Part shown: positions 19,601-57,249 of the stretch, one piece after another
Position numbering within the stretch: the stretch's first letter is position 1
How the letters are laid out: the number at the start of each line of letters is the position of its first letter
Origin: Tridacna crocea
Lineage: Eukaryota; Mollusca; Bivalvia; Cardiida; Cardiidae
Length of the DNA: 64,000 nt
Direction: 5' to 3'
Assembly (NCBI GenBank): GCA_943736015.1
Contig: OX031063.1
Location: 42,796,672 to 42,860,671, forward strand
Notes under the pieces: model-generated
The model's database searches: none
What the model saw: only the letters and a program-made list of their open reading frames with translations
What the model was told of the DNA's origin: nothing
Made by a program: the position numbers and the translations under genes

Positions 19601-22600
19601 GCTGTGGTTCACAGATTTCATTATCCCCCTGTTCTGCTTAACCCATTACCACACAATCCCTACTTTTGACGACCCTGAGAAAGAAGCCTATAGAAAACAT
19701 TGTGGGCAAGGGAGAAAATGTTGTTTCCCACAATGTTTTCTACCCTTCACAAAACCAATTTCAAATTTTCAGCCACTTTTATTTTGTCGTCTGCAAATGC
19801 TTTTGATTTGGACAAGCCTAAAATATTGTCGTTTGGTAATGAGTTAAACACTAGGCTTGGAAAATTTGTCTACACTAGAAAGTTACTGTGCTGGCCACAA
19901 AAGCTGAAAATGTGTAATACCAAAGTGGGATAAAATTGCTTGTAAAGACAATATAAATTAAGATCAGACTGCACTGCCTACACTGTCCAGTAGTTTGCAA
20001 GATATTTTTAACTGCAATAATCATCTCTGGTACAATCCGAGAGTGTTCATTTTTGTTACCTAACATCAAATCAAGTTGATTGGTGATACCTAAGGGAAAC
20101 AGTGTTGATACAATGTCCAGTGTCCAATTTTGAGGTAGATTGGTCATCTAAGAAGAAAGAAATTGACCAAAAGCAAATTGTATTGACCCCAATCAGACTG
20201 CATAGACTGTGCAGGCTGACCTGTGGAAACACTTTGTGCAGATGCATTAAATCTCCTTTTCACAGAGCATGGTTCAAATGATATGGACACACAATAAAAT
20301 GAAATCAGAGACACAGAAGAGAAGTATTTGTTGTTTAATTCTTTGAAGAACTTGCTCAGCCTTGTGGATAATCTTCTGCCTTAAAGGAGCATTGGGAATG
20401 ATCCTTTTCAAATGATATGAAATAGTTGATTTGTGAAGTAAGAAGTGTTGAAATATTTTTATGTGTGAGTTAGTCAGGTAATCTTTGAATATAATATCTG
20501 GAAATACTGAAAATGACATCACTAAAAAGTATCTGGTACTTCTATGGCACTTAAACTTTGTAGATGAATAGATTAAGTGCTACATGTATTTTACATTTCT
20601 TTTCTTAAAACAGAGGACACAGTTTGCCATGAATTTGCTGCACTAGCCTTATCCAATATGGCTACTGAATTCAGTTCCAAGATAGCTATTTATGAAAATG
20701 GTGGCATAGAACCTCTAGTGCGCTGCTTGGCCTCCCATGACCCAGATGTACAGAAAAACAGTATTGAAGCTCTAGCCTTGCTTCTTATGGTAAATATATG
20801 ATCTTAGTAAGTTTGCCTGGATCATCAGAAATCATTAAATTTAATGCTTTACCAAACAATCCTAATTTTTAATGATCCCTTGATTGTAGCTTTTTAAACC
20901 ATTGAGGGAAAAGGAGAAAATGCTGCTAAGCAGCATTTTCTCCTTTTCCCTCAATGGTTTAAACACTTCCCAAAACAATTTGCAAGTTTCCACTTGCATT
21001 TACCATGTTCTTTGTAAATGCTATCAATTTGGGATTGCCTTAGATTTGGTTGTTTGGTAAAGAGCTTAAGTGTAAGATTGCTGAAAAACTTTGAGTAGAC
21101 AGATCTGTTGTGAGCTAACTGAAACAAGAAAGTAGTCACAGAGTGATTTTTTTTTTTGCTAGAGAAGAAATACAATGTTCTGAACTCTTAAGCGGAAGCA
21201 GAAGTACTATTTCGATTTTTTAAGATTTAACTGATGATGTAATCAACAACTTGTTTATCTTCTATATAGATACAATGAATCAAAGTAGTTGTAAACACAG
21301 CTATTAGCTTGATATGACAGAAAAATGATACATGCTGTTCATGCTAACTCTTTACCAGAAGACAAAATTTTAGCCTTGCCCAAAATTGAAAGCGTTTGCA
21401 GACGCCAATTTCATTGTGGCCCAAATGGTGCATGTATTCTTTGACAAGGGTACAAAGCATTGTGGGAAAAGGAGAAAATACTATTTACCAGCATTTTCTC
21501 CTTTTCCCGCAATGTTTTCCAAAGGCTTATTTCTCAGGGGCGTTAAAAGTTGTCATTTTGTTTTAAAAAGTTAAAGAAAGTAAAAACAGAAACAGCATTA
21601 TCATTTTTTGCAACCAGAACAAAGCTACTCCTAGTATTTTAACATAGCAAACAAAATGTTACCCATTTTTGGAGGGAGGGGAAGAACAAGTCCATTCATC
21701 CAGTTTTGTAAGGTTTATATAAAAAACCCTTCAATTTTACTAATTCTCATATGTGATTACTCTGTATGATTTTTACCCATGATCCATCATACTTGATTTA
21801 TTGTGTTTATGGTCAAAGAATGTAATACATTTTATTGACAATATTTAGGATTACCAAACAAGAGCTGCCATAAGAGAGGTAGATGGGCTCGGACCTATGT
21901 TGGAACTGCTCAAGTCAGAGTATGCTGTTGTACAGAAACTAGCATTGTTGGCCCTGGATAGAAGCTCACAAGATGGTAACATATTTCAAAGCTCTACCAA
22001 ATAATCCCATGTTTTTATAACCCTAAAGTAGGCTTTTGAGAACAGTTTGAGAAAAGGAGAAAATGCTGCTAACCTGCATTTTCTCCTTCTTCAACAATGT
22101 TTCCTATTCTTTAAAAGACAGTTCCCATGTTTTGTGTCACATTCAATGTGTTGTCTGCAAATGGTTTGCATTTGAAATTTGGTTGCATGCTGATGGGTTA
22201 ACCTGCATTAAAATTTGTTCAATTTGGTCTTGCATAAAATTTTGTTGTTTGGTGAAGAGTCAATTAAAATCCATAACATGTTTCTTCCTTTATAGCAATC
22301 TAACATATTAACCCTTTCCCAAACAACAAATTTTGGACTCTTCCAAACTGAAAGAGTTTGCAGAAGACAATTTTAGATTTTGAGAAAATGGCAGAAAGTT
22401 CCTAAAAAGGGTAGAAAACACTGTGGGAAAAGGAGAAATTGCTCATTACGAGCAATTTCTCCTTTTCCCACAGTGTTTTCAAAAGACTTTTACTGCAGAC
22501 CCTTAAAAACCAGGGCTTGTTTGGAAAAGGGTTAACTAGACCACAAAAGTTAGACTTGTTAAACATTCTAAGGCATTTGCAGTTGACAAATTAGATGTGA

Positions 22601-25600
22601 GTCAAATGATGTGATTTACCCTTCATAGTTTAACTCTTTACCACACAACAAAATTTTAGACTCTTCTTAATTGAAAAATTAGCAGGGGACGAATTTTGAA
22701 ATGGACCTAGATGAACTGAGGTTCTCTTTTTGTGCAGCATTCTCTCTATTTCCTGCAGTATTTTAAAGTCTGTCTCCCTAAAGTTTAAAAAGTGGTCAAG
22801 GTTAAGGAACATTGTGGGAAATGGAGAAAATGCTATAACAGGCATTATGATTATCAACATCGTAATGGCTTAATACATAATCATGAGCAAGTGCTGCTTT
22901 TATCACAATATTTTCTTAAGTGGTCTGCTGTAAGAAGGGAAAAGTTGTCTGCATGAGGAAATCTATCAGTGTTTAAAATGTTCTAATAAGAAGTTCTATT
23001 ATTGTGCCTCTCCGTTTATGTGTGTTTGAGTTATTGTTGAATATCATCTTTGTAGTAAATGTTGCCGTCTTTGGAACAATTGTTTTGAACATTTTTTTTT
23101 TTACCTGATTATAAGTTAATAAGCGTACTGTTGTATATTTACAGCTGAAAACAGGGGAAATTTGAGAGAATTAGAAGCCATTACTAAATTGATTGACTTT
23201 GTTGCCCATCCAGAATGGAATGACCTTCACACAATGGCTGTCATGGTGCTGTCAAACCTACTTGAGGATGTTGAAAGTTTAGAGGTAGAAACATCAAATT
23301 AATTTTCTCATATGATGTGATTTGAAATAAGACCTTAACCCTTTACAACACAATGATGACTTTTAACCCATTACCACACAATCCCTACTTTTAACGACCC
23401 TGAGAAAGAAGCATTTAGAAAACATTGTGGGAAAAGGAGAAAGTGTTGAAAACCAGCATTTTCTCCTTTTCCCACAATGTTTTCTACCCTTTCCAAAAAA
23501 AAAAAAAAAATCATTTCCTTATTCACATTTATTTTGTCATCTGCAAATGCTTTCTGTTTGGACAAGTCTAAAATTTTGTAGGGTGGTAAAGGTTTAACAC
23601 CCCTGAAAGAGAAAGCTTCCGAAAACAGTATTGGAAAAGGAGAAAATGGTGGTTACCAGCATTTTCTCCTTTATCCACAGTGTTTTCTACCCTTCCTAGC
23701 GCAAATTTCAAAGTTTGAGTAACATATATTTTGTCGTCTGCAAATGCTTTCAGTTTGGACTAGTCTAAGGTTTTGTCATTTGGTAAAGAGTTAACCACAC
23801 AAATTGCAATGACCCTGATGATAAGGGCTTTTGATAACATAGTATTTTTGACAATACCAAAATGTTTTTTTCATCTTTTAAACAACAAGTTTGAAGTTTG
23901 AGTCTTTTCCAAACTCTGTCAGTTTTGACAAATTAAAGAATTAAGGCAATTTAACCTATTATCAAACAATCCCTACTGTTGATGCCCCCTGAAAAAGAAG
24001 CCTTTAGAAAACATTGTAGGAAAAGGAGAAAATGCTGGTGACCAGCATTTTCTCACAATGTTTTCTACTCTCCACAAAACAGATTTCAACTTTTCAATCA
24101 CTTTCATTTTGTCATCTGCAAATGCTTTCTATTTGGGCAAACCTAAAATTTTGTCATTTGGTAATGAGTTAAGGTAATTTAGAATAATAGATGGCCTGCG
24201 AAAAGGGGCATTCTGACACTTGTGTAAAGTATCGTTTCAGATCAGCCTGGGCAGTCTGTGCAGGCTGATCTGAAATTTTACTTTCGGTTTCAATGTAATT
24301 TTCTGTTTTGCCAAAGTCTGTTGTAACACAAATTCTAATTTAGTTGAAAAGTGCCCTCTCAGATTAGCCTGTGCAGGCTGATCCGAGACAAAACTTTACG
24401 TGAGTGTCTGAAAGCCCTTTTTCCCGTGCTGCAATCCATAGGATAATTTGAATCCAATTTTTTTAAGTACTGCTTTGCTATTTTTTCAGATAAGAGCTGC
24501 TGGTTGATTTGAACCTGACTCTTTGTTTCTTCTACTTACAGTTAATCAAGGAAACTGGAGGGCTCAAAAGACTAGTTGCTTTAATCACGGACCAACAACC
24601 TCCAGAGGATGATGGGAAAGGAGCCAAAGGGGCTCCTGACAAAGGTGGAAAGGGATCAAGAGCTGCAAAAAAGAGTGGGAAAGATTGTACGTAAAATGAG
24701 ACATTTAGACATGTACCAACTAGACTCAGCACCACGCAACATGTAGCATAATTCTCGTAATAAACGTGCCCTCCCTTATCCCATTACCACTCAATCCCTA
24801 CTTTTGACGCCCCTGAGAAAGAAGCCTTTTGAAAACACTGTGGGAAAAGGAGAAAATGCTGGTAACCAGCATTTTCTCCTTTTCCCACAGTGTTTTCTAC
24901 CCTTTCCAGAACAAATTTCTATTTTTCAGTCACCTTTATTTTGTCGTCTGCAAATGCTTTCAATTTGGACCAGTCCAAAATTGTCTCGTGTGGTAATGAG
25001 TTAAAGTACCCCCATCCCTTCTCCCCCAAAACCCATAAATGATAACCTAATGTAAATTTGTTGATAATAAGGACAATATTTTAAGAATTTGATGAATATT
25101 TTCCCTAATTTGATTAATATTTCCTCTTAACAATCACTGAAACACAAAGAAGTACATACAAGAATTGGACCAGACTTTTTGCTTTGCAAATTGGGTACAG
25201 AAAACAAGGCTCCCTATCCATATTTTGCATAGCCTAGGAGATATATGGTACATGCAAATGCAACAGCAACTTTACCAACTTTACAAATGATTTGGTTCTG
25301 CACATGAACTGTCTCTATTCCTTGACAGAAACGTTGTTGAATTTTGGGATAAACTGTATTTAAAAGAGCCATATCTTCACTTTTGAACACCATGCTTTCA
25401 CTTACATTTTTGTGTCATGTTTAAAGTGTGAAAAAGTGTATACAAACAAAAGCAAAGTGACAACTTTAGGCATGCCTGACATTTATCTTGTACCATCATG
25501 TACTTTCCATCACACTGTAAGACCTTTATCAAGGTTTCAACAAGAAATACTCTGAATGCAAGAGATGATCAGATTCATATTATATATCAGCATAACAGTG

Positions 25601-49600: not shown

Positions 49601-52600
49601 GGAGTTACAGGCTCAGTTACAGCGTGAAGCAGAAGCCATCTCGGCGGCCGACAATAAACCTTATGACCCACCATGTGATCCCACACTTCTCAAATACATG
49701 GATGAAGTGATGGAAAAAATTCAGCCTTTACCTTCAACTAGAGAGCAAGTACAGGCCTTAGCTATGTAAGATCTCCGTTTTCTTTTCAAAATTCTTAATT
49801 TTTCCATGTTGGAAGGATTTTATAGATGATTATTCAAATTTTTTTTTTCTTTTTTTTTTCAAATGATAGCATTTAGCCTTAAATAAATAGAAAACATTGC
49901 AAGAAAAGAAGAAAGTGCTGGTAACTGGCATTTGCTCTTTTTCCCACAATGTTTTCAAATGCCGGTTTTTTCAGGGACATTAAATCTTGAGATTTTGTGG
50001 TAAAGGGTTATCGCTCATATTTGGAAATATCTATACAGAGTTCAAGAAGATTACATAAATTTTTGTTTTGTCATATTTAATTATCAGTTTTCTATGTACA
50101 TGTATTAATATATCTATTCAAACTTGTTTACCTTTCCTTATGAAGCCCTTCAACTAATGATTAGATGACAGTTTTTGAGAATCAGCCCAACAGAAGGCAT
50201 TCAGGGATGAAAAATTAAATGTGGCAGAAGTAACAAAGAAGATTTGTAATTTTAACCGCTAGAGTACAAGATAAGCCCAACAGATATTTTAAATCTAGTA
50301 ATATGACCAAACCAAATTCAATCCCAAAAATTAACTCTTAACCACACAATGACGACTTTTGACGACCCCAAGCTAGAAGCCTTTTGAAAACAATGTAGGG
50401 AAAGGAAAAAATGCTGGTAACCAGCATTTTCTCCTTTTCCCACAATGTTTTCTATCCTTTCCAAATCAAATTTTGATTTAACAGTCAAATTTATTATGTC
50501 ATCTGCAAATGGTTTCAATTTGGACCAGTCTATAAATTTGTCATTTGATAAAGAGTAAATCTATGCAGCTAAGTGAAAAGTAACCTAGATATCTGGCTCA
50601 ACATGTCTCACGATTGTGTCAAATTTCAGGTTTGTTGCTGAGAAGATGGGAGGATCAATTGAACGTGGACAGTTAAGCAATTTTGGTTGGGAACTTCCAC
50701 TGAGCCAGATTAAGTTTGAACTCAAGAACAATGTGATACCACTGGGAAAAATCAAGTTCGGAATACATGTTCATAGAGCACTATTGTTTAAGGTAGGTTT
50801 TTACTTTGTTGATAGATCAGATCCATTATGAAGGTTGATGCTTTAACAATGAAATTTTATACTAAAATTTTATCTATATGGAAAGCATTTTCAGATGGCA
50901 GACTAAACGTTGCACAGAATAGGTCTTTTTTATTTAAAGGGATTGAAAACACTGGGGGAAAAGGAGAAAATGCTTGTTACCAGCATTTTCTTATTTTCCC
51001 ATAATGTGTTCAAAAGTCTTTTTTCGGGAGGTTGTTAAAATTTAGGATTGTATGGTTGAGGGTCAAACCTTTTACAAAAACCATGCTGTGTTAACCCATT
51101 ACCACTCAATCCCTACTTTTGACGCCCCTGAGAAAGAAGCCTTTTGAAAACACTGTTGGAAAAGGAGAAAATGCTGGTAACCAGCATTTTCTCCTTTTCC
51201 AACAGTGTTTTCTACCCTTCCCAGAAAAAAATTCTATTTTTCAGTCACCTTTATTTTGTCGTCTGCAAATGCTTTCAGTTTGGACCAGTCCAAAATTTTC
51301 TCGTTTGGTAATGAGTTAAACATCCCAAACATTTTGGAGAAAAGGAGAAAATGCTGGTTGTCAGGTTTTTTTTTTTCATTTTTTCACACAATGTTTTTTA
51401 CCCTTTTTAAGGCAAATATCATCTTTTGAATGACAGAAACATTTACACGTAATTTGTTGTGTACAAATTCTTGAACTCTTTACCAAACAACAAGGTTTTG
51501 GTCAAATTTATTTAATTTGAAAGCATTTGCAGAGAACAAGTATTGCACAAATCACAAAATTTATCTTTGATAGGGTGGAAAACATTGTGGTAAAAGGAGA
51601 AAATGTTGGTTACTACCACTTTCTACTTTTCCAACAATTTTTTCTAAACCCCAAGACTCACTAACTCATCAGTAAACATTGTGTAACATTGACGTTTTCA
51701 TAAAGGTTGTTCCCTACTTTGGTGACCCTAAGAAAGACGCCTTTAAAAACATTGTGGGAAAAGGAGAAAATGCTGGTAACCAGCATTTTCTCCTTTTCCC
51801 ACTATGTTTTCTTCTCTTAACAAAACAAATTTCAAACTTTCGGTCACTTTTATTTTGTCGTCTGCAAATGCTTTCGATTTGGACAAGCCTAAAATATTGT
51901 CGTTTGGTAATGAGTTAAGAGGTAAATAAGGATAAATCTTAAAACTTTGTCGTTTATAGTCTGGTAATGAATTTTTGTATTAAACACTGAATACAATTTA
52001 CTGTTTCTGGCTACATTTCTTTTTGGAAAAATATACCAGAAGGAGAAATTCTCAGGAAAATCTAATTCTCCTTTAACGACAATTTCATTTAACATAAATT
52101 GAATAATTGAACTTAATGATTGAATTTATTAACTCTGGTATGAACATTTATGAAATTAGAAATGAAATTTAAAGGAGAAAGCATTAGTATGTGCTACTAC
52201 TGCATACTCATCTGAGAATAACATTACTTGAATTTTCAGACTTTGGCAGATAAAATTGCTGTCAGTTGTTCTTTAGTGAGAGGAGAATATAACCGTGCCT
52301 GGAATGAAGTTCTACTGCCTGAACAGGACTACACTGTAAGTTTCCTTGGTAACATGACATTCATCCCTGCAAAGTACTTAAGATTTTGCATTGAAGGGGC
52401 AATATTTTTGTGTTGCTTGGCCATTGTAAATTGTTAGATTTCACAGTACACTAAAAATGTGTTGAGGGCCCATTTTCATACATCAGATCAGGAATGTTAT
52501 CAACCCTTTACCACACAACAAGATGTTAGACCCATCCAAATTGATATTATTTGCTGATGACAGTTTCAGTATGGCTCATATGAAATGATTTTACGTTGAT

Positions 52601-55600
52601 AGGGTAGAAAGAAAACATTGTGGGAAAAGGAGAAAATGCTGGTAACCAATTTAAGTGTAGACATAGTATACATGTTTTTATTTTGTGGCAGTGAAACTAA
52701 GTCTTCACCATACATAAAATATGTGGACTTGTCCATACAGAAAGCATTTGCATACAATAACCAAAATATGTCTCAAATGATGCAATTCCTATTTGATATG
52801 TTAGAAAACATTTTGGGAATAATAGAAAATGCTGTTTACTGGCATTTTCTACTTTTAAAACAATTATTCCAAAAGTTCTTTTCCTCAGGGTTGTTAAACA
52901 TGTGTGTTAAACAGTTAATACATTCAAAATACTTGTTGCTGTTTTAGATTATCTCTACATATTAAACATAGATTATCTCTACATATCAAGTATTACTATG
53001 ACTTATGTATAGGGGATTGTAACTATGTAGTACAAAAAATGTCTGTCAGCCGTAAGGGAGCAAAGTTTTGGTAAAATGTATGGTACATAGTCATAGTTTA
53101 ATTTTTAAAACTGAAGAATACCAAATAAAAAGCCGTCTTTCAACCTTACATTCATCATTAAGTATCAAGTATTGTTCGTATTGTAACAGCTGTGATAGGC
53201 CAAGACTTATTGGCCAAGAGATTCTATTTCAGCAGCGGTTCAGATTGTTAGTCTTTTGATTTGAAACTAGAATTTAAAAATTAAGAATGGTTGATTAGTA
53301 CATCCACAATACTTGTGCTGTGCTCAAACTGATAAGCCTTTCATGTATAAATAATATCAGAAAGTTGATACGAAAACATTTTCAGCTTGAAGATACTTTG
53401 TTCGCATTCAGTCCAACTGTAAGTCTTTACAGATGTTTAATCTCGTTGTTTGCATGGGATCATTTCCATTTCAGTCATCATTTGGAGACACTATGAATAT
53501 TTTTCTTCAATCAATATCATTTTTTGCCTCTGATTTCTTGATGCAAGATCACATTTGTTATGAAATCTGTACATCATATTCCAAGTTTTTAATTTTTCTC
53601 ACTCCAGATTTTTTTCTCTTTGCACAATCAGTCTGTACTTCAATGTGCTTTTGCAAACAGAGTGGAGCTAGATAAAACATTATTATCTCTACATTTGAAT
53701 CATGCTGTAGTAAAAGGAGGTTTAATGCATCTCCATGTGGTTTGCAGCACGGAAAAAGGGACATTCAAATAATTGCGTAAAATGTCGTCTCGGATCAGCA
53801 TGCGCAGTCCGCACAGGCTAATCCAAGACGGCACTTTACGACTTCATTAGATTTTGTTCTTCAGTCAACTTGCGCTAAACAGAAAATTACATAAAAACGG
53901 AGTGTCATTTCAGATTAGCCTGTGCGAAATGCGCAGGGTCATCCGAGACGACACTTTACGTAAATGGCCAAATGTCCCTTTTTGTGTCTCGCAGGTCATA
54001 TACCAAGCAAGTCATCACATAATAATGGATCCATAACATTCGTTTTGTCTAAAAGATGATTGCATTATGAAGGAGAATGGTCCTTAAGCATGCAGAAAAT
54101 TTTTCGATTGCAAAATGGCTTTTGCACTGATCAGCCTGCCTAATCTGTGCAGGCTTTCATGAATTGATCCTCTCTACAGCTGCACTTAACCTTTTACCCC
54201 ATAAGGCATTTCTATGGTATCTTTAATTGACTGTAAATTACGGCAAGGATGAAGCTGTTTCTTATGTGTATATGGCACCTTTTGATAGCATAGAAAACAT
54301 TGTGGCAAAAGGTGAAATTGCTCATGACGAGCAATTTCACCTTTTGCCACAATGTTTTCCAAAGGCTCTTACATGCAATGCATAGAAATGAGTATGGAGT
54401 AAAGGGTTAATCTCCTTTTTAAAGAGCATGGCTCATTTACCATGTTAAGTTATGAGTCTCTTCATAAACTACAAATATTGAAAGAATGAACTGCCATGGA
54501 ACTGTTATACTTAACTCTTTAGTGAACGACAAAACTGTAGACAACTCCAAATTGAGAGTATTTGCAGACATCAAAATGAAAGTGGCTCAAAAACTGAAAT
54601 TTGTTTTGGGACAGGTAGAAAACATTGTGGGAAAAGGAGAAAATGCTGGTTACCAGCATTTTCTCCTTTTCCCACAATGTTTTCGAAAGGCTTCTTTCTC
54701 AGGGTCTTGAACAGCTGGGATTGTGTGGTAAAGGGTTAAACCATTGCAGTACTTGAAAGTCTCATAAGATCAACTAAAAGTAATACATAAATTGTACGAA
54801 AAGGAAATAACATAATTATTTTTACATTGTAATGAAAAGATTGTGCGAAAAAAACTGCTTTGAACAAGCATTCATTCCTTTTGACTTGTTTCAAATGGCT
54901 TTCTATCACAGAAAGGTTACAACTTGTATGTGTATGGTATTTGGTTGAACTCCTATTTGTTCTCACATCACACTGTATATCTGAGCCATGCTGCATGAAA
55001 AGGGGGCTTAACCCTTTCCCAAAAGACAAATTTTGGACCCTTCCAAACCGAAAGAGTTTGCAGACGACAATTTTAGATTTGGATAAAATTGCAGAAAGTT
55101 CTTAAAAAGGGTAGAAAACACTATGGGAAAAGGAGAAATTGCTCATGAGCAATTTCTCCTTTTCCCACAGTGTTTTCAAAGACTTTTACTGCAGACATGT
55201 AAAAACCAGGGCTTGTTTGGGAAAGGGTTAATGTGTCTGCAACAAGTAATAATTCATGCAGTCTGCACAGGCTGACATGAATCAAAACTTTTCGCTGTGT
55301 AAATTTTCTGCATGGCAAGGAACCGTTCTGCCTCCCCATCCAGTCGATGGGATGTTACTGTTCCATAATTACGTGATGACTTTCTTGGTAGATTGCATCA
55401 CGGAGATGCATTAAACCCCCTTTTGGCAGAGCACAGCTCATATTTTATGTATAAAAGTGCAGTGAGATTCATAAACACTTAACTGGTATGTCAGGACTGT
55501 ATCTACAGACTGTTGGTCTTTGTTTAACTCTTTGCCACACAATCCCGACTTTTAACGACCCTGAGAAAGGAAGCCTTTGAAAACATTGTGGGAAAAGAAG

Positions 55601-57249
55601 AAAATGCTGTTAAACAGCATTTTCTCCTTTTTTCCAACATGTTTTCTACCCTTTCCAAATCAGTTTTCAATATTTGATACACATTTATTTTGTCGTCTAC
55701 AAATGCTTTCAATTAGGACAAGTCCAAAATTTTGTCATGTGGTAAAGAGTTAATTCATTTGGAACCATATTCACTTTCTAGACTGTCTTCTCAAAACTTT
55801 TCTAAATTTCAAAGGAAAATGTTTCTGTATAGCCAGAAAAATATGAGGAATTCTCTGTGAAAAGGGGGAGTAATACACGTACATCTGCAAAAAGTATTGC
55901 AGACTGTGCTTGCTGGATGGATCAGAACTTTTTGCATGCCAAAGGATCGTTCTGCCTATGTAAGACAAAACGGATTTTACTGACCCATTATCATGTGGTC
56001 ACTTGCTTGGTATAGTGCATATCACAGACGCCTTCTTTAGTCTGTGTGCTGATCAAATATTTTTACACAAATTTCCTATTCTCTCAAGATATATAAATAT
56101 GGAGTCCAGCAATCCAGGGCTGTCATGGTGCTCTTGTTGAGAACATAACTGATTTGATTGTTTCAAATTAATTGAGTAAATTACTGCTTAAGTCAATCAT
56201 ATCCCTGGTCAAAAAAATAGTATTAATATCTTGAATAAACTTCATTCAAGTTAGAGTGCTTTTATGCTTTTGGGACAGTGCTTCTTTTGGTCTAGCTTAA
56301 CTTGTTACCTTGTTACCTCACCAGAAAATTTTAGACCAGTCCAAATTCAAAACAAATGCAGACAACATATTAAACATGCCTTAAATGGCTTGTTTCTGAA
56401 AGGATACAAAACATTGTGGGAAAAGGAGAAAATGCTGGTAACCAGCATTTTCTCCATTTCCCACCATGTTTTCAAAAGATTCCTTCTTAGGGATTGTTAA
56501 AACTCAGGATTGTGTGGTAAACTGTTAATGCAGCATGTTTTTGTGTACAAGAGCTTTTTATAAAGTAAATTTTCATTCACCTAACAGGTCATAGGTCTGC
56601 AAGTGATGCTTATTTTCCCACTATTATAAGGTTGTTTTAAAGTGTTCTGATAGTTTCACTTGGTACTTAGGACAATAAAGGCTATAGTAAAGAATTAAGG
56701 CTTCTTTGCCTTTTGCCATACAATCTTGGATTTAATAACCCCAAGAAAAAAAGCTTTTTAAGCATTATGGGAAAAGGAGAAAATACTGGTATGCCCAAAA
56801 CAAGTTTTTGAGTCGTGTTTGTTTTGTTGCTGTCTTCAAACAAATTTTGTTGTTTGAATAACCGATTACCATACAATCCCTACTTTTGATGCCCCTAAGA
56901 AAGAAGCCATCAGAAAACATTGTGGGAAAAGGAGAAAATGCTGGTAACCAGCATTTTCTCCTTTTCCCACAATGTTTTCTACCTTTTACAAAACAAATTT
57001 CAAATTTTCGGTCACTTTTATTTTGTGGTCTGCAAATGCTTTCACTTTGGACAAACCTAAAATTTTGTCGATTGGTAATGAGTTAAGAGTTCACCATGTA
57101 CATTCATAATTATCTTATATCTGTTTCTTTCATTTCAGCCTGGTGCCCCTAAATTTCCACCAAAGACATTTATTGTAGATTTGATACATGAACCTGGTAA
57201 CCTGCTCAGATTTGATACTCCGGAGGCGCAGACCTACAAGAAAATATGA
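13600..57249 (+). CDS. ARMC3: ARMC3-like armadillo-repeat protein, complete coding region in 27 exons (spliced)
   Basis: Spliced coding region assembled by eye from GT/AG borders and phase continuity; about 955 codons (963 with an optional 24-nt exon). The start is the ATG opening MGKKVKKDEKPPPDDV, nearly identical to the human ARMC3 N-terminus as I remember it. Residues about 17-600 are successive armadillo repeats (blocks such as EDKIVRRNACMAVGVM, DPDVQKNSIEAL, VKEASTLALANLTTAN). Residues about 660-820 are a low-complexity, charged linker. Residues about 820-955 form the C-terminal EDR1-like (transglutaminase-fold-related) domain, including CSLVRGEYNRAWNEV. Family knowledge: ARMC3 is a ciliary/testis-enriched animal protein without established catalytic activity; human ARMC3 is 872 aa. 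The extra length here is in an insertion near residues 285-345 and in the linker. Introns are 0.3-4 kb and mostly mobile-element sequence. Assignment is confident; individual linker microexons are less so. Confidence 0.93.
13888..14117 (+). mobile_element. TTAA-hairpin MITE, subfamily B
   Basis: Palindrome core GAAATTGCTCGTCACGAGC rather than GAAAATGCTGGTAACCAG; borders TTAACCCTTTACCTAA and TATGGAGTAAAGGGTTAA. Its right TTAA is also the left TTAA of the next copy. Confidence 0.85.
14114..14317 (+). mobile_element. TTAA-hairpin MITE, subfamily A, left palindrome arm deleted
   Basis: TTAACCCTTTATCACACAAT to GTGTGGTAAAGGGTTAA; about 25 bp of the left palindrome arm is missing. Shares its left TTAA with the preceding copy. 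Confidence 0.8.
14978..15095 (+). CDS. ARMC3: ARMC3-like exon 2
   Basis: Acceptor CCCTTTATAG, donor GTAAGT. 118 nt, phase 0 in and 1 out. Encodes FDTLLVESRQAGTVVLML and then a first armadillo helix ending KACEAIYKFVDK, matching the corresponding human segment closely. Confidence 0.93.
15157..15392. mobile_element. Palindromic GCATGCGAAAAGG element
   Basis: Ends TGCAACATGCGAAAAGGGGC and GCCCCTTTTTGTGTGTTGCA are inverted repeats; inside are AGCCTGCGCAGTCCATGCAG and its mirrored partner near 15325. About 235 bp. Same family at 24190, 28311 and 53734. Confidence 0.85.
15490..15650 (-). mobile_element. TTAA-hairpin MITE, decayed
   Basis: Recognisable AAACTGAAAGTATTTGCAGAC and GAAAATGCTAGCTATAAGC; termini lost. 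A second fragment at 15415-15445 repeats the same first motif. Confidence 0.55.
15826..16055 (+). mobile_element. TTAA-hairpin MITE, subfamily A
   Basis: Near-intact '+' copy: TTAACCCATTACCACACAAT to GTGTGGAAAAGAGCTAA, palindrome arms CACTGTGGG / CCCATAGTG. Confidence 0.88.
16700..16905 (+). mobile_element. TTAA-hairpin MITE, decayed
   Basis: Retains CTGGGAAAGAAAGCTTTTGAAA and TTGTCTGCAGATGCTTCTAA; the palindrome is largely destroyed. Confidence 0.55.
17030..17223 (-). mobile_element. TTAA-hairpin MITE, subfamily A, left end lost
   Basis: '-' copy ending TTTGGTAAAGGGAT, about 40 bp upstream of exon 3. Confidence 0.8.
17264..17389 (+). CDS. ARMC3: ARMC3-like exon 3
   Basis: 126 nt between acceptor TTACTTATAG and donor GTAAGC. 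Encodes KQLLDLGAVEHLLALM and EDKIVRRNACMAVGVM, an armadillo repeat. A TTAA-hairpin element ends about 40 bp upstream of the acceptor. Confidence 0.93.
17569..17797 (+). mobile_element. TTAA-hairpin MITE, subfamily B
   Basis: 229 bp. Core GGTGAAATTGCTCGTTATGAGC; both arms carry the subfamily change (AAAAGGTGAAATT / AATTTCACCTTTT). Confidence 0.87.
17802..18054. repeat. 42-bp minisatellite, about six copies
   Basis: Unit contains TATAGACCTATGTCAACC and TGAGCAATACACATCTGC; the last four copies are almost identical, the first two carry TTATAGATC. Each unit is 14 codons long, so one - strand frame stays open through it. Confidence 0.95.
18150..18236 (+). repeat. Repeat family 3 fragment (CATCACAGAGATG type)
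   Basis: Contains TGACTTGCTTGACATAATGC and CCCTTTTGCCAGAGCATGGC, shared with 55370-55445 and 61513-61604. Confidence 0.7.
18354..18573 (-). mobile_element. TTAA-hairpin MITE, subfamily A
   Basis: '-' copy; arms carry matched GGGAAAAGAAGAAAATGC / GCATTTTCTTCTTTTCCC, a mirrored change from the family's GGAG. Confidence 0.85.
19013..19368 (+). mobile_element. Two adjacent decayed TTAA-hairpin MITEs
   Basis: First (19013-19143) has lost its palindrome; second (19145-19368) retains a shortened palindrome GAGAATTGCTGTAACCAGC. Both '+'. Confidence 0.65.
19447..19518 (+). CDS. ARMC3: ARMC3-like exon 4
   Basis: 72 nt, phase 1 in and 1 out, acceptor CTTTCTGCGCAG, donor GTAACT. Encodes EVRKYLRKQEATYLALVN, aligned with the human segment containing NDVKKLLRELDVM. 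Confidence 0.9.
19638..19847 (+). mobile_element. TTAA-hairpin MITE, subfamily A, palindrome tip deleted
   Basis: Borders intact, palindrome centre reduced to GAAAATGTTGTTTCCCACAA; starts 120 bp after exon 4. Confidence 0.85.
20614..20789 (+). CDS. ARMC3: ARMC3-like exon 5
   Basis: 176 nt, acceptor CTTAAAACAG, donor GTAAAT, phase 1 in and 0 out. Encodes CHEFAALALSNMATEFSSK and GGIEPLVRCLASHDPDVQK, strongly conserved with human ARMC3. Confidence 0.94.
20841..21068 (+). mobile_element. TTAA-hairpin MITE with privately mirrored palindrome
   Basis: Arms read AAACCATTGAGGGAAAAGG and CCTTTTCCCTCAATGGTTT with core ATGCTGCTAAGCAGCAT. Several of these differences from consensus occur at matching positions in both arms. 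Confidence 0.88.
21344..21574 (-). mobile_element. TTAA-hairpin MITE, subfamily A
   Basis: '-' copy with borders CTAACTCTTTACCAG and TAAAAAGTTAA. Confidence 0.8.
21849..21975 (+). CDS. ARMC3: ARMC3-like exon 6
   Basis: 127 nt, acceptor AATATTTAG, donor GTAACA, phase 0 in and 1 out. Encodes DYQTRAAIREVDGLGPML then LLKSEYAVVQKLALLAL (human LLKSEYPVIQLLAL). Confidence 0.94.
21986..22264 (+). mobile_element. TTAA-hairpin MITE abutting exon 6
   Basis: Begins about 10 bp after the exon 6 donor and carries a 50-bp internal insertion or rearrangement in its right flank. Confidence 0.75.
22308..22535 (-). mobile_element. TTAA-hairpin MITE, subfamily C
   Basis: Ends TTAACCCTTTCCCAAACAAC and TGTTTGGAAAAGGGTTAA; core GAGAAATTGCTCATTACGAGC; flank GAAAGAGTTTGCAGAAGAC. 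Confidence 0.88.
23145..23284 (+). CDS. ARMC3: ARMC3-like exon 7
   Basis: 140 nt, acceptor TATATTTACAG, donor GTAGAA, phase 1 in and 0 out. Encodes NRGNLRELEAITKLIDFV and EWNDLHTMAVMVLSNLLEDV, matching the human block with NDLHIEALAVIANCLEDM. Confidence 0.93.
23363..23596 (+). mobile_element. TTAA-hairpin MITE in a four-copy run (1)
   Basis: Interrupts the left end of another copy (TTAACCCTTTACAACACAATG at 23337). Ends GGTGGTAAAGGTTTAA, which also starts the next copy. Confidence 0.87.
23593..23794 (+). mobile_element. TTAA-hairpin MITE in a four-copy run (2)
   Basis: Lacks about 25 bp of its left end but keeps a full palindrome; ends TTTGGTAAAGAGTTAA. Confidence 0.82.
23791..23942 (+). mobile_element. 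TTAA-hairpin MITE in a four-copy run (3), decayed
   Basis: TTAACCACACAAATTGCAATGA to AAAGAATTAA, palindrome lost. Confidence 0.6.
23951..24172 (+). mobile_element. TTAA-hairpin MITE in a four-copy run (4)
   Basis: TTAACCTATTATCAAACAAT to TTTGGTAATGAGTTAA; palindrome right arm shortened. Confidence 0.85.
24190..24440. mobile_element. Palindromic GCATGCGAAAAGG element
   Basis: ATGGCCTGCGAAAAGGGGCAT to TTCCCGTGCTGCAATCCAT with CAGCCTGGGCAGTCTGTGCA inside; second copy of the family at 15157. Confidence 0.82.
24542..24686 (+). CDS. ARMC3: ARMC3-like exon 8
   Basis: 145 nt, acceptor TCTACTTACAG, donor GTACGT, phase 0 in and 1 out. Encodes LIKETGGLKRLVALI then a Gly/Lys/Pro-rich insertion (KGAKGAPDKGGKGSR) that has no counterpart in the human protein as I recall it, where the armadillo repeat continues directly. 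Confidence 0.9.
24776..25004 (+). mobile_element. TTAA-hairpin MITE, subfamily A
   Basis: Exactly 229 bp; left border TTAT, right GAGTTAA; perfect palindrome arms CACTGTGGG / CCCACAGTG. Confidence 0.9.
25860..26080 (+). mobile_element. TTAA-hairpin MITE, diverged
   Basis: TTAATCTTTTACCTCAAAGT to TTTGGTAAAGAATAA. Confidence 0.75.
26207..26435 (-). mobile_element. TTAA-hairpin MITE, subfamily A
   Basis: Exactly 229 bp '-' copy, TTAA at both ends. Confidence 0.9.
26563..26586 (+). CDS. ARMC3: Candidate 24-nt cassette microexon of the ARMC3-like gene
   Basis: Between AACTATTACAG and donor GTAATA lie 24 nt, phase 1 in and 1 out, adding DYMAGQS within the Lys-rich insertion. Skipping it also keeps frame, so it is either a cassette exon or a chance match. 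Not included in the 955-codon count. Confidence 0.45.
27297..27413 (+). CDS. ARMC3: ARMC3-like exon 9
   Basis: 117 nt, phase 1 in and 1 out, donor GTAAGC. Encodes SKKQESADSTEPPPGEAI, the end of the insertion, then LPDVKMCAAKAIARSARS, which rejoins the armadillo fold (human IPDIQKNAAKAITKAA). The acceptor AAGCAG is a NAGNAG tandem site; using the first AG would add one Ala codon. Confidence 0.92.
28150..28302 (+). CDS. ARMC3: ARMC3-like exon 10
   Basis: 153 nt, acceptor TTAAATTTCAG, donor GTATAT, phase 1 in and 1 out. Encodes VENRKILHEQETEKMLIHLL (human ENRKLFHEQEVEKCLVALL). A palindromic element begins only about 8 bp after the donor. Confidence 0.93.
28311..28513. mobile_element. Palindromic GCATGCGAAAAGG element abutting exon 10
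   Basis: Starts about 8 bp after the exon 10 donor: GCGTGCAACATGCGAAAAAGG to CCCCTTTTCCCATGTTGCA. Intron splicing begins essentially inside it. Confidence 0.82.
28567..28795 (+). mobile_element. TTAA-hairpin MITE with mirrored arms
   Basis: 229 bp; arms CACTGTAGGAAAAGG and TTTCCTACAGTG share the same G-to-A / C-to-T mirrored change. Confidence 0.88.
28884..29112 (-). mobile_element. TTAA-hairpin MITE with mirrored arms
   Basis: Exactly 229 bp; arms CATTGCAGGAAAAGG / CCTTTTCCTGCAATG carry mirrored changes. Confidence 0.9.
29459..29651 (-). mobile_element. TTAA-hairpin MITE with deletion
   Basis: TTAACCCATTACCAAACGAC to GTGTGGTAATTGGTTAA; about 36 bp of left flank deleted. Confidence 0.85.
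29850..29958 (+). CDS. ARMC3: ARMC3-like exon 11
   Basis: 109 nt, acceptor ATTTTTTAG, donor GTATGA, phase 1 in and 2 out. Encodes GMQPLIKMVSSDNGNVKEAS and TLALANLTTANTNN; human has AALALANLTTCNPANAN. Confidence 0.93.
30294..30400. mobile_element. Foldback element, 107 bp
   Basis: TTTGAGATAA and TTATCTCAAA ends; long imperfect arms containing TTTTATTAAACTC and GAAAATGTTATTAAGC, centre CCGCCAAGG. Confidence 0.8.
30484..30707 (+). mobile_element. TTAA-hairpin MITE, diverged
   Basis: TTAAACATTCACTGCATAAT to TTTGGTTAAGAATTAA. Confidence 0.75.
31196..31430 (+). mobile_element. TTAA-hairpin MITE, diverged
   Basis: TTAACCCTTTACCAAATAAT to TTTTGGTAAAAGGTTCAA; arms GTGTGACAAGAAGAAAATGC / GCATCTTCTTCAATTCACAC. 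Confidence 0.8.
31780..31956 (+). CDS. ARMC3: ARMC3-like exon 12
   Basis: 177 nt, acceptor TTCTTTCAG, donor GTAAGT, phase 2 in and 2 out. Encodes GIEPLINCLVDSREEAVANA and ACVLTNLAQIEVLR, followed by GVVRALIEPLNSK; a clear armadillo repeat matching human GIDPLINLLSSKRDGAIANA. Confidence 0.94.
32251..32425 (+). mobile_element. TTAA-hairpin MITE, truncated
   Basis: TTAATCTTTTACCACACAAT with decayed palindrome and no right terminus. Confidence 0.65.
32517..32589 (+). CDS. ARMC3: ARMC3-like exon 13
   Basis: 73 nt, acceptor CATATTTCAG, donor GTAAAT, phase 2 in and 0 out. Encodes NTVVQSKVALAVAAFVCDAD (human NTVVQSKAALAVTATACDVE). Confidence 0.94.
32821..33056 (+). mobile_element. TTAA-hairpin MITE, diverged
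   Basis: TTAACCTTTTGCCACACAAC to GTGTGGCAAAGAGTTAA: even the terminal change (TTGCCACAC / GTGTGGCAA) is mirrored. Confidence 0.85.
33200..33336 (+). CDS. ARMC3: ARMC3-like exon 14
   Basis: 137 nt, acceptor GCTCTTTCAG, donor GTGAGT, phase 0 in and 2 out. Encodes DGLSPLIALLRSCNDEVRRN and TAWAVTVCAVDEPTAIE, the last canonical armadillo repeat. Confidence 0.94.
33496..33722 (-). mobile_element. TTAA-hairpin MITE, decayed
   Basis: TTAACTCTTTACCAGACAAA to TTTAGTGCAGG; palindrome decayed. Confidence 0.65.
33755..33938 (-). mobile_element. tRNA-derived SINE
   Basis: Read on the - strand: A box TAGCTCAGTTTGGTAGCG and B box GGTTCAATTCC, followed by a body of about 110 bp. Unrelated in body to the SINE at 3264. 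Confidence 0.8.
34033..34261 (+). mobile_element. TTAA-hairpin MITE next to exon 15 acceptor
   Basis: Exactly 229 bp with TTAA at both ends; its right end is 28 bp before exon 15, so it supplies sequence near the branch point. Confidence 0.9.
34290..34414 (+). CDS. ARMC3: ARMC3-like exon 15
   Basis: 125 nt, acceptor TTTTTCCAG, donor GTAAGT, phase 2 in and 1 out. Encodes FAEAALQKLLDSNLSAKYA (human FSEAAYNKLLNNNLSLKYS). A TTAA-hairpin element ends 28 bp upstream of the exon, inside the likely polypyrimidine/branch region. Confidence 0.94.
34460..34594 (-). mobile_element. TTAA-hairpin MITE half copy cut at the palindrome centre
   Basis: Left terminus and left arm present up to GGAGAAAATG, then unrelated sequence starting at the centre of the hairpin. 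Confidence 0.82.
34704..34842 (+). CDS. ARMC3: ARMC3-like exon 16
   Basis: 139 nt, acceptor TATCCATAG, donor GTAAGT, phase 1 in and 2 out. Encodes NFIENGFYDVGQLRPETKFL (human NIINDGFYDYGRINPGTKLL) and ends IILINAKPE. Confidence 0.93.
34855..35083 (-). mobile_element. TTAA-hairpin MITE
   Basis: 229-bp '-' copy beginning 12 bp after the exon 16 donor. Confidence 0.87.
35155..35383 (+). mobile_element. TTAA-hairpin MITE
   Basis: 229-bp '+' copy with borders TCTAACCCATAACCAC and GGGTAATGGGTTAA. Confidence 0.87.
35525..35746 (-). mobile_element. TTAA-hairpin MITE
   Basis: TTAACCCTTTCCCAAAACG to TTTAGTAAAGGGTTAA, '-' copy with GTTTCCAGCAGGGTAGG flank. Confidence 0.87.
36436..36543 (+). CDS. ARMC3: ARMC3-like exon 17 (start of linker)
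   Basis: 108 nt, acceptor GATTGTTTCAG, donor GTAAAT, phase 2 in and 2 out. Encodes a Ser/Thr/Gln/Lys-rich stretch (ALSQTQSQTEIDLKQDTSK). Its counterpart in human is also a Ser/Lys-rich linker, so identity is weak but position and phase fit. Confidence 0.82.
36544..38187. other. Intron sequence without recognised intact element
   Basis: Only a decayed GATCAGACT hairpin at about 36920-36970. No exon with good borders and phase was found here. Confidence 0.5.
38188..38417 (-). mobile_element. TTAA-hairpin MITE
   Basis: TTAACTGTTTACCAAATGAC to TTTGGGAAAGGGTTAA. Confidence 0.86.
38655..38870 (-). mobile_element. TTAA-hairpin MITE, decayed
   Basis: ACTAACCCTTAACTAGACAA with AAGTGAAAGTATTTG and weak palindrome remnants. 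Confidence 0.55.
39784..39834 (+). CDS. ARMC3: ARMC3-like exon 18, 51-nt linker exon
   Basis: Acceptor TTTCTTTTTCACAG is strong; donor GTAGGT. 51 nt, phase 2 in and 2 out, encoding IIRKDHFVHKESARGS. Phase-neutral, so it may be alternatively included. Confidence 0.7.
39934..40162 (-). mobile_element. TTAA-hairpin MITE
   Basis: 229-bp '-' copy; starts about 100 bp after exon 18. Confidence 0.86.
40464..40508 (+). CDS. ARMC3: ARMC3-like exon 19, 45-nt linker exon (candidate)
   Basis: Acceptor CCTTTTTCAATAG, donor GTGAAA. 45 nt, phase 2 in and 2 out, encoding SFDVFNHAQNACIT. The donor is weaker than its neighbours. Confidence 0.5.
40689..40902 (+). mobile_element. TTAA-hairpin MITE, left of a pair
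   Basis: TTGAACTCTTTACCACACAAT to TTTGGTAAAGAGTTAA. The final TTAA is shared with the next copy. Confidence 0.83.
40899..41127 (+). mobile_element. TTAA-hairpin MITE, right of a pair
   Basis: Exactly 229 bp, sharing its left TTAA with the preceding copy. Confidence 0.88.
41428..41655 (-). mobile_element. TTAA-hairpin MITE
   Basis: TTAACTCTTTACCAAACAAC to GTGTGGTAAATGATTGA. Confidence 0.83.
41874..41885 (+). CDS. ARMC3: ARMC3-like exon 20, 12-nt microexon (candidate)
   Basis: Between TATTTCTGCAG and GTAAGT lie exactly 12 nt, phase 2 in and 2 out, adding a four-residue step (reads P-P-H-S when joined). Both splice signals are near consensus. Confidence 0.55.
42361..42588 (+). mobile_element. 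TTAA-hairpin MITE, subfamily A, reference copy
   Basis: Reference for the family. Begins TTAACCCTTTACCACACAAT and ends TTTGGTAATGGGTTAA, so TTAA flanks the element and the ends are inverted repeats. Left flank carries GACGCCCCTGAGAAAGAAGCC; a central palindrome of about 67 bp reads GGAAAAGGAGAAAATGC then CTGGTAACCAG then its complement; the right flank carries TTTTGTCGTCTGCAAATGC. No coding capacity. Intact length is 229 bp in many copies. Known family logic: TTAA target duplication and C-rich termini are typical of piggyBac-type transposons; this copy is therefore a non-autonomous derivative (inference). '+' orientation in this annotation means this order of flanks. Confidence 0.9.
43833..43844 (+). 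CDS. ARMC3: ARMC3-like exon 21, 12-nt microexon (candidate)
   Basis: Between GTGCTTGCAG and GTAAGT lie exactly 12 nt, phase 2 in and 2 out, adding H-S-P plus a junction codon. The second 12-nt exon in the same linker. Confidence 0.55.
45081..45309 (-). mobile_element. TTAA-hairpin MITE
   Basis: Exactly 229 bp '-' copy; core ATGCTGGATACCAGCAT; ends 82 bp before exon 22. Confidence 0.9.
45391..45435 (+). CDS. ARMC3: ARMC3-like exon 22, 45-nt linker exon
   Basis: Acceptor TTAATTTGCAG, donor GTGAGA. 45 nt, phase 2 in and 2 out, encoding GRRASLIDNSLTSV. Contains an RRAS motif of the kind recognised by basophilic kinases (inference). Confidence 0.65.
45753..45983 (-). mobile_element. TTAA-hairpin MITE
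   Basis: TTAACTTTTTACCAAACGAC to TTTGTGAAAGGGTTAA. Confidence 0.87.
46574..46802 (+). mobile_element. TTAA-hairpin MITE
   Basis: Exactly 229 bp '+' copy, TTAA at both ends. Confidence 0.9.
47570..47763. mobile_element. Foldback MITE, 194 bp, with perfect central palindrome
   Basis: Ends GGGTCCATATTCACCAACC and GGTTGGTGAATACAGACCC are inverted; the centre AACCAATTGGTT lies in a long perfect palindrome containing TGATTGGCTAAACC and its complement. A partial second copy lies at the window end. Confidence 0.88.
48325..48749 (+). repeat. Recent tandem duplication, two copies of 211 bp
   Basis: Copy 1 48325-48535, copy 2 48536-48749; only about four substitutions or one-base shifts separate them (for example GTACTGAGAT versus GTACTGTGAT). 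Confidence 0.95.
49075..49240. mobile_element. Foldback element, 166 bp
   Basis: Perfect 15-bp ends AATAATCTTCTTTCT / AGAAAGAAGATTATT; internal inverted pair TCAATAAACCACA / TGTGGTTTATTGA. Confidence 0.87.
49556..49765 (+). CDS. ARMC3: ARMC3-like exon 23
   Basis: 210 nt, acceptor TATATATCAG, donor GTAAGA, phase 2 in and 2 out. Encodes a Glu/Lys/Gln-rich helix (KQQEREEKQKEEELQAQLQ), then YDPPCDPTLLKYMDEVMEKI leading into the EDR1-like domain. Human has a KKEEEKVKEEEE stretch and PPSDPDFSMYVYEVTKSI at the same place. Confidence 0.93.
49850..50010 (-). mobile_element. TTAA-hairpin MITE, decayed
   Basis: GAAAGTGCTGGTAACTGGC core and right end TTGTGGTAAAGGGTTA; left end lost. Confidence 0.6.
50331..50559 (+). 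mobile_element. TTAA-hairpin MITE
   Basis: 229 bp, TTAACTCTTAACCACACAAT to TTTGATAAAGAGTAA; ends 71 bp before exon 24. Confidence 0.86.
50630..50792 (+). CDS. ARMC3: ARMC3-like exon 24 (EDR1-like domain)
   Basis: 163 nt, acceptor CAAATTTCAG, donor GTAGGT, phase 2 in and 0 out. Encodes FVAEKMGGSIERGQLSNFGW and FELKNNVIPLGKIKFGIHVH, nearly identical in pattern to human YVAEKMGGKIPKEKLPDFSW and FQLKSNVIPIGHVKKGIFYH. Confidence 0.96.
51091..51319 (+). mobile_element. TTAA-hairpin MITE with mirrored arms
   Basis: Exactly 229 bp; arms CACTGTTGGAAAAGG / CCTTTTCCAACAGTG carry a mirrored G-to-T / C-to-A change. Confidence 0.92.
51325..51650. mobile_element. Two decayed TTAA-hairpin MITEs
   Basis: A '+' relic around 51325-51475 and a '-' relic from TGAACTCTTTACCAAACAAC at about 51473. 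Confidence 0.55.
51701..51918 (+). mobile_element. TTAA-hairpin MITE, left end altered
   Basis: Full palindrome and right end TTTGGTAATGAGTTAA; left terminus replaced by AAAGGTTGTTCC. Confidence 0.8.
52240..52335 (+). CDS. ARMC3: ARMC3-like exon 25 (EDR1-like domain core)
   Basis: 96 nt, acceptor GAATTTTCAG, donor GTAAGT, phase 0 in and 0 out. Encodes LADKIAVSCSLVRGEYNRAW then NEVLLPEQDYT; human ADRIGIGCSLVRGEYGRAW. The conserved Cys before SLVRGEY corresponds to the position of the nucleophile in transglutaminase-like folds; catalysis is not established for this family. Confidence 0.96.
52499..52649 (-). mobile_element. TTAA-hairpin MITE half copy cut at the palindrome centre
   Basis: Left half runs to ATGCTGGTAACCA and stops at the hairpin tip; a second decayed '-' copy follows at about 52720-52920. 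Confidence 0.8.
53386..53418 (+). CDS. ARMC3: ARMC3-like exon 26, 33-nt exon (candidate)
   Basis: Between CATTTTCAG and GTAAGT lie 33 nt, phase 0 in and 0 out, encoding LEDTLFAFSPT. Fits the variable loop between NEVLLPEQDYT and PGAPKFPP, where human has NDSRKGVIGG. Confidence 0.65.
53734..54000. mobile_element. Palindromic GCATGCGAAAAGG element
   Basis: TTTGCAGCACGGAAAAAGGG to CCCTTTTTGTGTCTCGCAGG with AGCATGCGCAGTCCGCACAG inside. Confidence 0.82.
54186..54410 (-). mobile_element. TTAA-hairpin MITE, subfamily B
   Basis: TTAACCTTTTACCCCATAAG to ATGGAGTAAAGGGTTAA; arms GTGGCAAAAGGTGAAATT / AATTTCACCTTTTGCCAC, perfectly mirrored. Confidence 0.9.
54511..54739 (-). mobile_element. TTAA-hairpin MITE
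   Basis: Exactly 229 bp '-' copy. Confidence 0.88.
55008..55231 (-). mobile_element. TTAA-hairpin MITE, subfamily C
   Basis: TTAACCCTTTCCCAAAAGAC to TGTTTGGGAAAGGGTTAA; core GAAATTGCTCATGAGCAATTTC is a spacer-free palindrome. Confidence 0.9.
55245..55445 (+). repeat. Repeat family 3, most complete copy
   Basis: CAGTCTGCACAGGCTGACAT, GCATGGCAAGGAACCGTTCT, and TGCATCACGGAGATGCATTA in this order. Serves as an approximate empty-site reference for the MITE insertion at 61257. A third copy lies at about 55890-56040. Confidence 0.7.
55524..55753 (+). mobile_element. TTAA-hairpin MITE
   Basis: TTAACTCTTTGCCACACAAT to GTGGTAAAGAGTTAA; core ATGCTGTTAAACAGCAT, a mirrored variant. Confidence 0.87.
56297..56528 (-). 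mobile_element. TTAA-hairpin MITE
   Basis: Left end TTAACTTGTTACC partly duplicated; right end GTGTGGTAAACTGTTAA. Confidence 0.78.
56858..57086 (+). mobile_element. TTAA-hairpin MITE before the last exon
   Basis: Exactly 229 bp; ends 52 bp upstream of exon 27. Confidence 0.88.
57139..57249 (+). CDS. ARMC3: ARMC3-like exon 27 (terminal exon)
   Basis: Acceptor TTTCATTTCAG, phase 0 in. 36 codons and TGA, encoding KTFIVDLIHEPGNLLRFDT and ending AQTYKKI; human ends MYVIDLMFHPGGLMKL...ADLYRFI. A hairpin element ends 52 bp upstream. Confidence 0.95.
   Translation, partial: PGAPKFPPKTFIVDLIHEPGNLLRFDTPEAQTYKKI

Follow-up and report, generated by a model that had tools for sequence, protein, structure and literature searches.

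When one long palindrome recurs many times in a stretch of DNA and its copies differ from one another, does each arm of a copy change on its own, or does one arm follow the other? The question is raised by the 64-kb stretch of DNA analysed here (the window), in which a sequence-only reading had noticed that copy-specific changes are mirrored in both arms of a repeated palindrome, while flanking positions drift without such pairing. It had offered three causes: correction of one arm from the other through a hairpin or cruciform, selection on a folded RNA, and the origin of each copy by snap-back copying of one arm. Our conclusion is that the observation is partly confirmed and its interpretation partly supported, and that the best fit, compared with those causes, is a palindrome under constraint for as long as its element moves.

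A profile search found 113 non-overlapping matches of one element in the window, in both orientations. The element spans 227 profile columns (about 227 bp), and its centre is a near-perfect 33-1-33 palindrome, nearly complete in 70 of the 113 matches, whose pairs we number 54 to 86, position p pairing with position 174 minus p. Across the whole genome (a 1.05-Gb, 31-contig assembly, with the window at 42796672–42860671 of one contig) the inner 49 nt of this core, with A or T at the centre, has 34,110 + 34,303 = 68,413 exact occurrences, and 200 kb taken from 20 other genomic places holds 276 matches longer than 150 bp, a density slightly inflated by the centring of these places on the best matches of one window copy (copy 20847, below). 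TTAA flanks both sides of 144 of the 210 end-to-end copies (left 175, right 170), 14 of 18 columns of the outer inverted repeats are complementary between the element ends, and the terminal inverted repeats are short, beginning CCC or CTC after the TTAA. The ends of piggyBac also begin CCC or CTC after TTAA. Judged by ends and size, the repeats are classed as copies of a putative piggyBac-type, TTAA-inserting, non-autonomous MITE, presumably non-coding; the six-frame list of open reading frames gives overlapping frames of 70–100 aa. A scan of the window against Rfam returned no family at its gathering score, a tRNA scan and a comparison with viral contigs returned nothing, and we found no paper that by its listing describes this MITE family, which is not proof of absence.

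Several features of the element and of the window are recorded here in their own right. The centre letter of the core is A in 49, T in 12, G in 4 and C in 3 of 68 window cores, and in a loop-inversion test other A columns of the element reached T counts similar to those of the core centre. Beside the left arm, at column 53, many copies carry a T>A change (59 of 298 copies A/T) that adds one or two pairs to the palindrome. A swap from T/A to A/T at columns 6 and 220, in the outer repeats, is mirrored at both ends in about 40 of 230 copies and is perhaps a subfamily marker at the element ends. Three close half-core units (one arm plus the adjacent flank, with no second arm) stand in a row at 1848–2035, which suggests tandem duplication of a partial element, and other long palindromes with arms up to 54 bp and no match to the MITE core (47611–47718, 4539–4617, 7163–7263 and 30306–30389) are possibly other fold-back elements. 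Between about 17245 and 32000 lie exon-like pieces of an armadillo-repeat protein gene, with MITE copies sitting between them; four of six translated pieces reach the Pfam Arm cut-off, from which we conclude that the window is animal genomic DNA, and the sixth piece, near 52222, matched nothing. A short tandem repeat at 17855–18082, which the list of open reading frames reads in frame as repeated IDLCQPEQYTS-like units, is probably non-genic.

The arm pairs quoted in the sequence-only reading are present, its positions being mostly those of element starts and not of arms. The copies that carry them are:

51091..51319 (profile match 51093–51319), + strand: element copy 51093, TTAA at both ends, core 51146–51212, GTTGGAAAAGG/CCTTTTCCAAC at 51155/51193; mirrored changes at pairs 65 (G>T) and 61 (T>C), unpaired changes 0.
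20840..21072, + strand: element copy 20847, TTAA at both ends, 35-bp arms, core 20893–20963, CATTGAGGG/CCCTCAATG at 20900/20948 with the tip GCTGCT/AGCAGC; four mirrored changes (pairs 54, 58, 64 and 85), unpaired changes 0.
28571..28793, + strand: element copy 28571, core 28622–28688, CTGTAGG/CCTACAG at 28629/28675; mirrored changes at pairs 65 (G>A) and 61, one unpaired change at pair 71.
28884..29110, − strand: element copy 29110, core 28991–29057, GCAGGAAAAGG/CCTTTTCCTGC at 29000/29038; mirrored changes at pairs 64 and 65, one unpaired change at pair 76.
18355..18571, − strand: element copy with GAAGAAAATGC/GCATTTTCTTC at 18479/18499; mirrored change at pair 73 (G>A), one arm truncated.
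55526..55753, + strand: element copy with a mirrored change at tip pair 85 (CTGTT/AACAG, within 55593–55631) and four unpaired changes.

Even these copies are not purely mirrored, three of them (28571, 29110 and 55526) holding unpaired changes and the copy at 18355 having a truncated arm. Across the 70 window cores, 1891 pair cells are unchanged, 323 are changed in one arm, 55 are mirrored and 14 are changed in both arms without complementarity, so that the claim that both arms usually agree does not hold. That the arms covary beyond independent mutation does hold: when right arms were shuffled among copies 2000 times, the mirrored count averaged 14.0 and never exceeded 32. The 200 kb from the 20 outside places gave 48 mirrored cells against 18.9 expected (maximum 31 in 1000 shuffles), and the window alone, counted among the 289 copies with usable flanks, gave 26 against 8.7. 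The pooled sample comprises 327 cores, 304 of a main type and 23 of a B type; with pair 61 set aside, as it defines a subfamily, the 304 main-type cores hold 81 mirrored changes against 32.0 (sd 5.5, maximum 49 of 1000 shuffles), beside 1,148 changes in a single arm and 76 further doubles. The covariation is real, but most arm changes are not mirrored, one-arm changes outnumbering mirrored ones 6 to 14 times.

Both arms are changed 135 times at the true partner position, against 56–82 at other offsets (289 copies). The few sister pairs in the window (16, with flank distances within 20%) show 8 mirrored changes where 1.76 are expected. The covariation ends at the core edge, pairs 49–53 being paired as expected, and to that extent the earlier statement that flanks drift without pairing stands; it fails for the outer terminal repeats. 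These lie about 190 bp apart and show 38 mirrored changes against 19.8 without their pair 6, a comparison in which subfamily structure is retained, and 41 at pair 6 alone. Such an excess is as expected if the symmetry of a functional sequence is kept, with no need for a short hairpin. By eye, we saw no mirrored insertions or deletions.

How much of this signal is descent from a few founders? Among 12 recurrent mirrored variants (at least three carriers each), only pair 61 T>C, carried by 26 copies, clusters clearly by flank; 84 G>A is borderline, and the other non-61 variants do not cluster, a scatter that leaves their founders putative. The mirrored change at pair 65 in copy 51093 looks private within the window. 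Thirty-nine other genome matches of this copy, the best 40 scored of 1577 candidates including itself, are 98–99% identical to it, and all 12 relatives read from those 39 have T/A at pair 65 in both arms; the mirrored core is the same in 13 of 13 dispersed copies of the group, and the mirrored change of copy 51093 is founder-inherited. It is important to note that, for both 51093 and 28571, relatives were ranked by how closely they match the query, a choice biased towards the state that the query itself has at pair 65. One copy with the one-arm state T/C (L128) lies 4.6% from the 51093 group, and the first 100 of 2679 places included 72 lone arms, of which the 20 checked gave, at pair 65, T/C 9, A/A 3, T/A 3, G/A 3, C/A 1 and T/gap 1. 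The proposition that mirrored variants trace to founders is thus borne out for pair 61, for the B-type core and for copy 51093, while part of the mirrored variation recurs in unrelated copies. Relatives of 51093 and of the B type within the window are:

24780..25004, + strand: near-consensus relative of 51093, flanks 4.3% different, perfect core at 24831–24897, the pair-65 change absent.
54186..54408, − strand: B-type relative, the same core with mirrored differences at pairs 67, 74, 79 and 84.
17572..17795, + strand: second B-type copy, with the same four mirrored differences (pairs 67, 74, 79 and 84).
22308..22533, − strand: B-like copy, mirrored at pairs 61, 79 and 84, its flanks distant from the B consensus; its type recurs at 55008–55229 and 57974–58198.

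The group of copy 28571 behaves differently at the same pair. We read 39 of 39 relatives (the best 40 of 3174 candidates, query included), and pair 65 is A/C (changed in the left arm alone) in 21 copies, G/C in 9 and A/T in 8 (the query among them), with one G/A and one A/gap. Since 21 copies carry the one-arm state A/C, the one-arm change was itself multiplied, the intermediates moved, and the change in the second arm followed; with 21 of the 39 relatives sharing a one-arm change, this group is at odds with an origin of every copy by snap-back copying of a single arm. Of the 40 copies, 17 have complementary letters at pair 65, which makes this pair exceptional, since the remaining core sites of these copies total 14 changes in 2560. 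The A/T copies are placed either among those with A/C or in a sub-group together with G/C copies, and the flank markers look reshuffled. Either several source lineages were amplified together, or the mismatch was settled more than once, to one letter and to the other, the tree of the group being too weak to choose.

The core has changed less than its surroundings along the lineages that gave rise to other copies. When half of the flank columns set the tree topology and the rest were held out, the ratio of internal to terminal branch change is 0.043–0.069 for the core and 0.195–0.252 for the held-out flank columns, in six of six random splits; a bootstrap of the full-flank tree gives 0.064 (0.023–0.119) for the core and 0.269 (0.222–0.319) for the flank. 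Five copies with fully paired consensus cores have flanks 15.6–20.9% from any sampled relative. A copy of this kind within the window is:

54511..54737, − strand: diverged-flank copy, its core consensus and fully paired, its flanks at least 18% from any sampled main-type copy.

In this copy the core was conserved while the flanks diverged. At the consensus level the flanks of the B type and the main type are only about 43% identical, and between their cores, at pairs 54–86, there are mirrored differences only. Taken together, the branch ratios, the diverged-flank copies and the B-type cores argue that the core is kept while lineages move. The core rate is still only 0.61 times that of the flanks on terminal branches, either because these include time spent moving or because the core is afterwards also shielded to some degree or less mutable.

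Correction in place, if it continued after insertion, would make the mirrored excess grow with the decay of a copy, whereas changes made before insertion would not. Under a null in which expectation scales with each copy's own change rate, the 240 copies with at most 6 unpaired changes hold 52 mirrored changes against 14.5 expected, and those with 0–1 hold 16 against 0.95, while the 64 copies with at least 7 hold 29 against 29.0. A Poisson fit gives a constant 0.15–0.16 extra mirrored changes per copy and none proportional to decay, with or without copy 20847; we rely on the fitted rates, the P value against a purely proportional model being inflated in that copies with no unpaired change have an expectation of zero. 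The excess does not grow with decay and so looks like a legacy of the mobile phase, not the product of continuing correction in place, for which the fitted rate is 0. Plain shuffling within flank-age bins (fifths of the 289 copies) had suggested growth with age, with 37 mirrored against 20.4 in the oldest bin and 6 against 1.0 in the youngest; this growth vanished under the per-copy null, and correction in place was dropped as the main cause for that reason. The per-copy null is itself imperfect, given that non-complementary doubles also exceed expectation (76 against 47.7–53.7), and in the oldest copies there is little statistical power.

Whether the second arm is copied from the first or compensates for it is a separate matter. 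Independent second hits predict 72% transitions among mirrored changes. The observed counts are 28 of 49 in copies with at most 6 unpaired changes (P 0.017), 10 of 18 in copies with at most 2 (P 0.10), and 12 of 27 distinct mirrored types (P 0.002), the last a count that favours transversions, of which more types exist. Among single changes the figure is 323 of 581. The mirrored spectrum therefore matches that of the singles, which favours copying of a single mutation, with the caveat that a founder may be common to some of the events. A variant free of founders, 85 G>A, allows the rate to be gauged genome-wide: 1,613 cores have it in one arm and 77 in both, against about 38 expected if the count for the other single arm is taken as equal to the first. 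The second arm is changed in 4.6% against a base rate of 2.3%, an excess of about 1% of one-arm cores, and an enrichment of only about 2-fold speaks against correction in place as the main cause. We read the first listed copies, 20 of the 77 mirrored (contigs 1–5) and 20 of the 1613 one-arm (contig 1): the mirrored ones form no clade and are scattered, and their median flank divergence is 0.148 (0.115–0.452) against 0.140 (0.092–0.295) in the one-arm copies. Selection on RNA wobble pairing was also considered and set aside, one-arm transitions leaving G.T (83) and A.C (92) about equally, with no sign of G-U tolerance.

From these results we infer an account to which we give rather better than even credence: an inverted repeat constrained during the mobile phase, with restoration of the second arm, multiplication by transposition, and then decay. 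The central inverted repeat would be held to a narrow sequence and to pairing for as long as its lineage moves, a constraint that may bear on the folded form or on the inverted sequence itself and may serve transposition, for example through paired transposase binding sites or a hairpin. In a moving lineage one arm would change, the mismatched element remaining able to move; a second change restoring pairing would follow, presumably selected and not copied from the first arm; and transposition would then multiply one-arm and mirrored versions alike, the commonest state of a group presumably being that of its founder. After insertion a copy would decay, mostly one arm at a time. Mirrored changes would thus be mainly those of founders and of the mobile phase, with arm-to-arm repair in resting copies operating to a small extent, if at all. 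Several results sit awkwardly with this account. Pair 65 in the 28571 group changes much faster than ordinary mutation would, unless separate source lineages are involved; the mirrored spectrum resembles that of singles, not of independent doubles; and most recurrent mirrored variants do not cluster by flank. Copy 20847 has four mirrored changes and no relative above 79% identity among those scored (its best other genome match, 40 scored of 3342 candidates). The core rate of 0.61 means that free decay after insertion is not cleanly seen on terminal branches, and the shuffling within flank-age bins has the mirrored excess rising with age. Copy 20847 is also curious in itself, standing at least 21% from every scored relative and yet forming a perfect palindrome with 35-bp arms.

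Hairpin- or cruciform-templated correction (quasipalindrome template switching) would use one arm to rewrite its partner, whether in all copies or chiefly at the time of mobilisation; we regard it as unlikely and still a serious contender. The single-like spectrum (28 of 49 beside 323 of 581, not 72%), the near-equal appearance of the A/C mismatch of the 28571 group as G/C (9) and A/T (8), and the roughly twofold genome-wide excess of 85 G>A doubles, scattered as far as the 20 of 77 read show, all agree with it, and the mechanism is known (PMC8794818). Against it are the failure of the excess to grow with decay under the per-copy null, the mirrored correction of only about 1% of one-arm cases for 85 G>A (one count assumed equal), the end of covariation at the core edge, and the inheritance of the mirrored state in copy 51093. 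A mirrored change made in one event would also leave no stable one-arm intermediate, whereas in 28571, the one variant tested, the one-arm state A/C is the commonest (21 of 40). A proofreading of the arms tied to mobilisation, for example in a single-stranded or cruciform intermediate, by which a mismatch would be resolved to either letter about equally and resting copies would decay, strikes us as rather doubtful; if it is true, the 28571 group (A/C 21, G/C 9 and A/T 8 of 40) is a snapshot of it.

The remaining explanations fare less well. Gene conversion between copies, homogenising cores by carrying both arms together and so decoupling the histories of core and flank, would explain why single and mirrored core variants (pair 61 apart) mostly ignore flank relationships, why cores are conserved while flanks diverge, and why the flank markers of the 28571 group look reshuffled; it requires mirrored donors that already exist, it would not confine co-occurrence to true partners (135, against 56–82 at non-partner positions), and we consider it very unlikely. 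That a few old subfamilies fixed mirrored variants and chance double changes supply the rest agrees with the flank clustering of pair 61, with the group-wide sharing of the B-type differences and of the 51093 variant, and with mirrored counts that equal expectation in decayed copies. Persistence of the excess without pair 61 and the B-type copies (81 against 32), the 16 mirrored changes against 0.95 in copies with 0–1 unpaired changes, the failure of most non-61 recurrent variants to cluster by flank and the depletion of core changes on internal branches leave founders and chance alone, in our estimation, a very slim prospect. Least credible of all, to our minds, is an artefact of assembly or polishing in which palindromic reads are corrected until their arms read alike. 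Palindromes are in general hard to sequence and assemble; the 6- to 14-fold preponderance of one-arm changes, the identity of the mirrored core in 13 of 13 dispersed copies of the 51093 group and the confinement of the excess to little-decayed copies all count against such an origin.

A genome that holds the same long palindrome tens of thousands of times is a natural system for studying the mutation and upkeep of palindromes in animals, and the data help to separate founder inheritance, constraint while mobile and templated repair, which are often confounded. They also counsel caution: covarying paired changes in repeats are not, on their own, evidence of a folded RNA or of arm-to-arm correction. 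Of interest is the route by which the second arm acquires the complement of the first; here the mirrored spectrum and the state of the 28571 group still allow copying, perhaps tied to mobilisation.

Homogenisation of palindrome arms has reportedly been described in yeast. Here, as in quasipalindrome or template-switch correction, there are mirrored changes, a single-like spectrum and matched pairs carrying either letter of a mismatch; unlike in such correction, there is no accumulation in place under the per-copy null, the one-arm intermediate was multiplied, and covariation stops at the core edge. Template switching is described as maintaining stems by Monttinen and Loytynoja 2022 (PMC8794818). 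With its TTAA target duplication, short terminal inverted repeats, length of 227 bp and high copy number, the element resembles MITEs of the piggyBac superfamily. PMC11707139 describes piggyBac as having identical 19-bp palindromic sequences on both ends, bound by the cysteine-rich domains of the transposase. In contrast to these separate end motifs, the element has one long central palindrome with 33-bp arms. The inverted-repeat structure of Angel fold-back MITEs (Izsvak et al. 1999) is said to have been kept despite wide sequence divergence, pointing to functional importance. In the element described here, by contrast with fold-back MITEs such as Angel, great length and near-perfect pairing are confined to the central palindrome, and the copy number permits the upkeep of such a structure to be set against shuffles, decay and founders.
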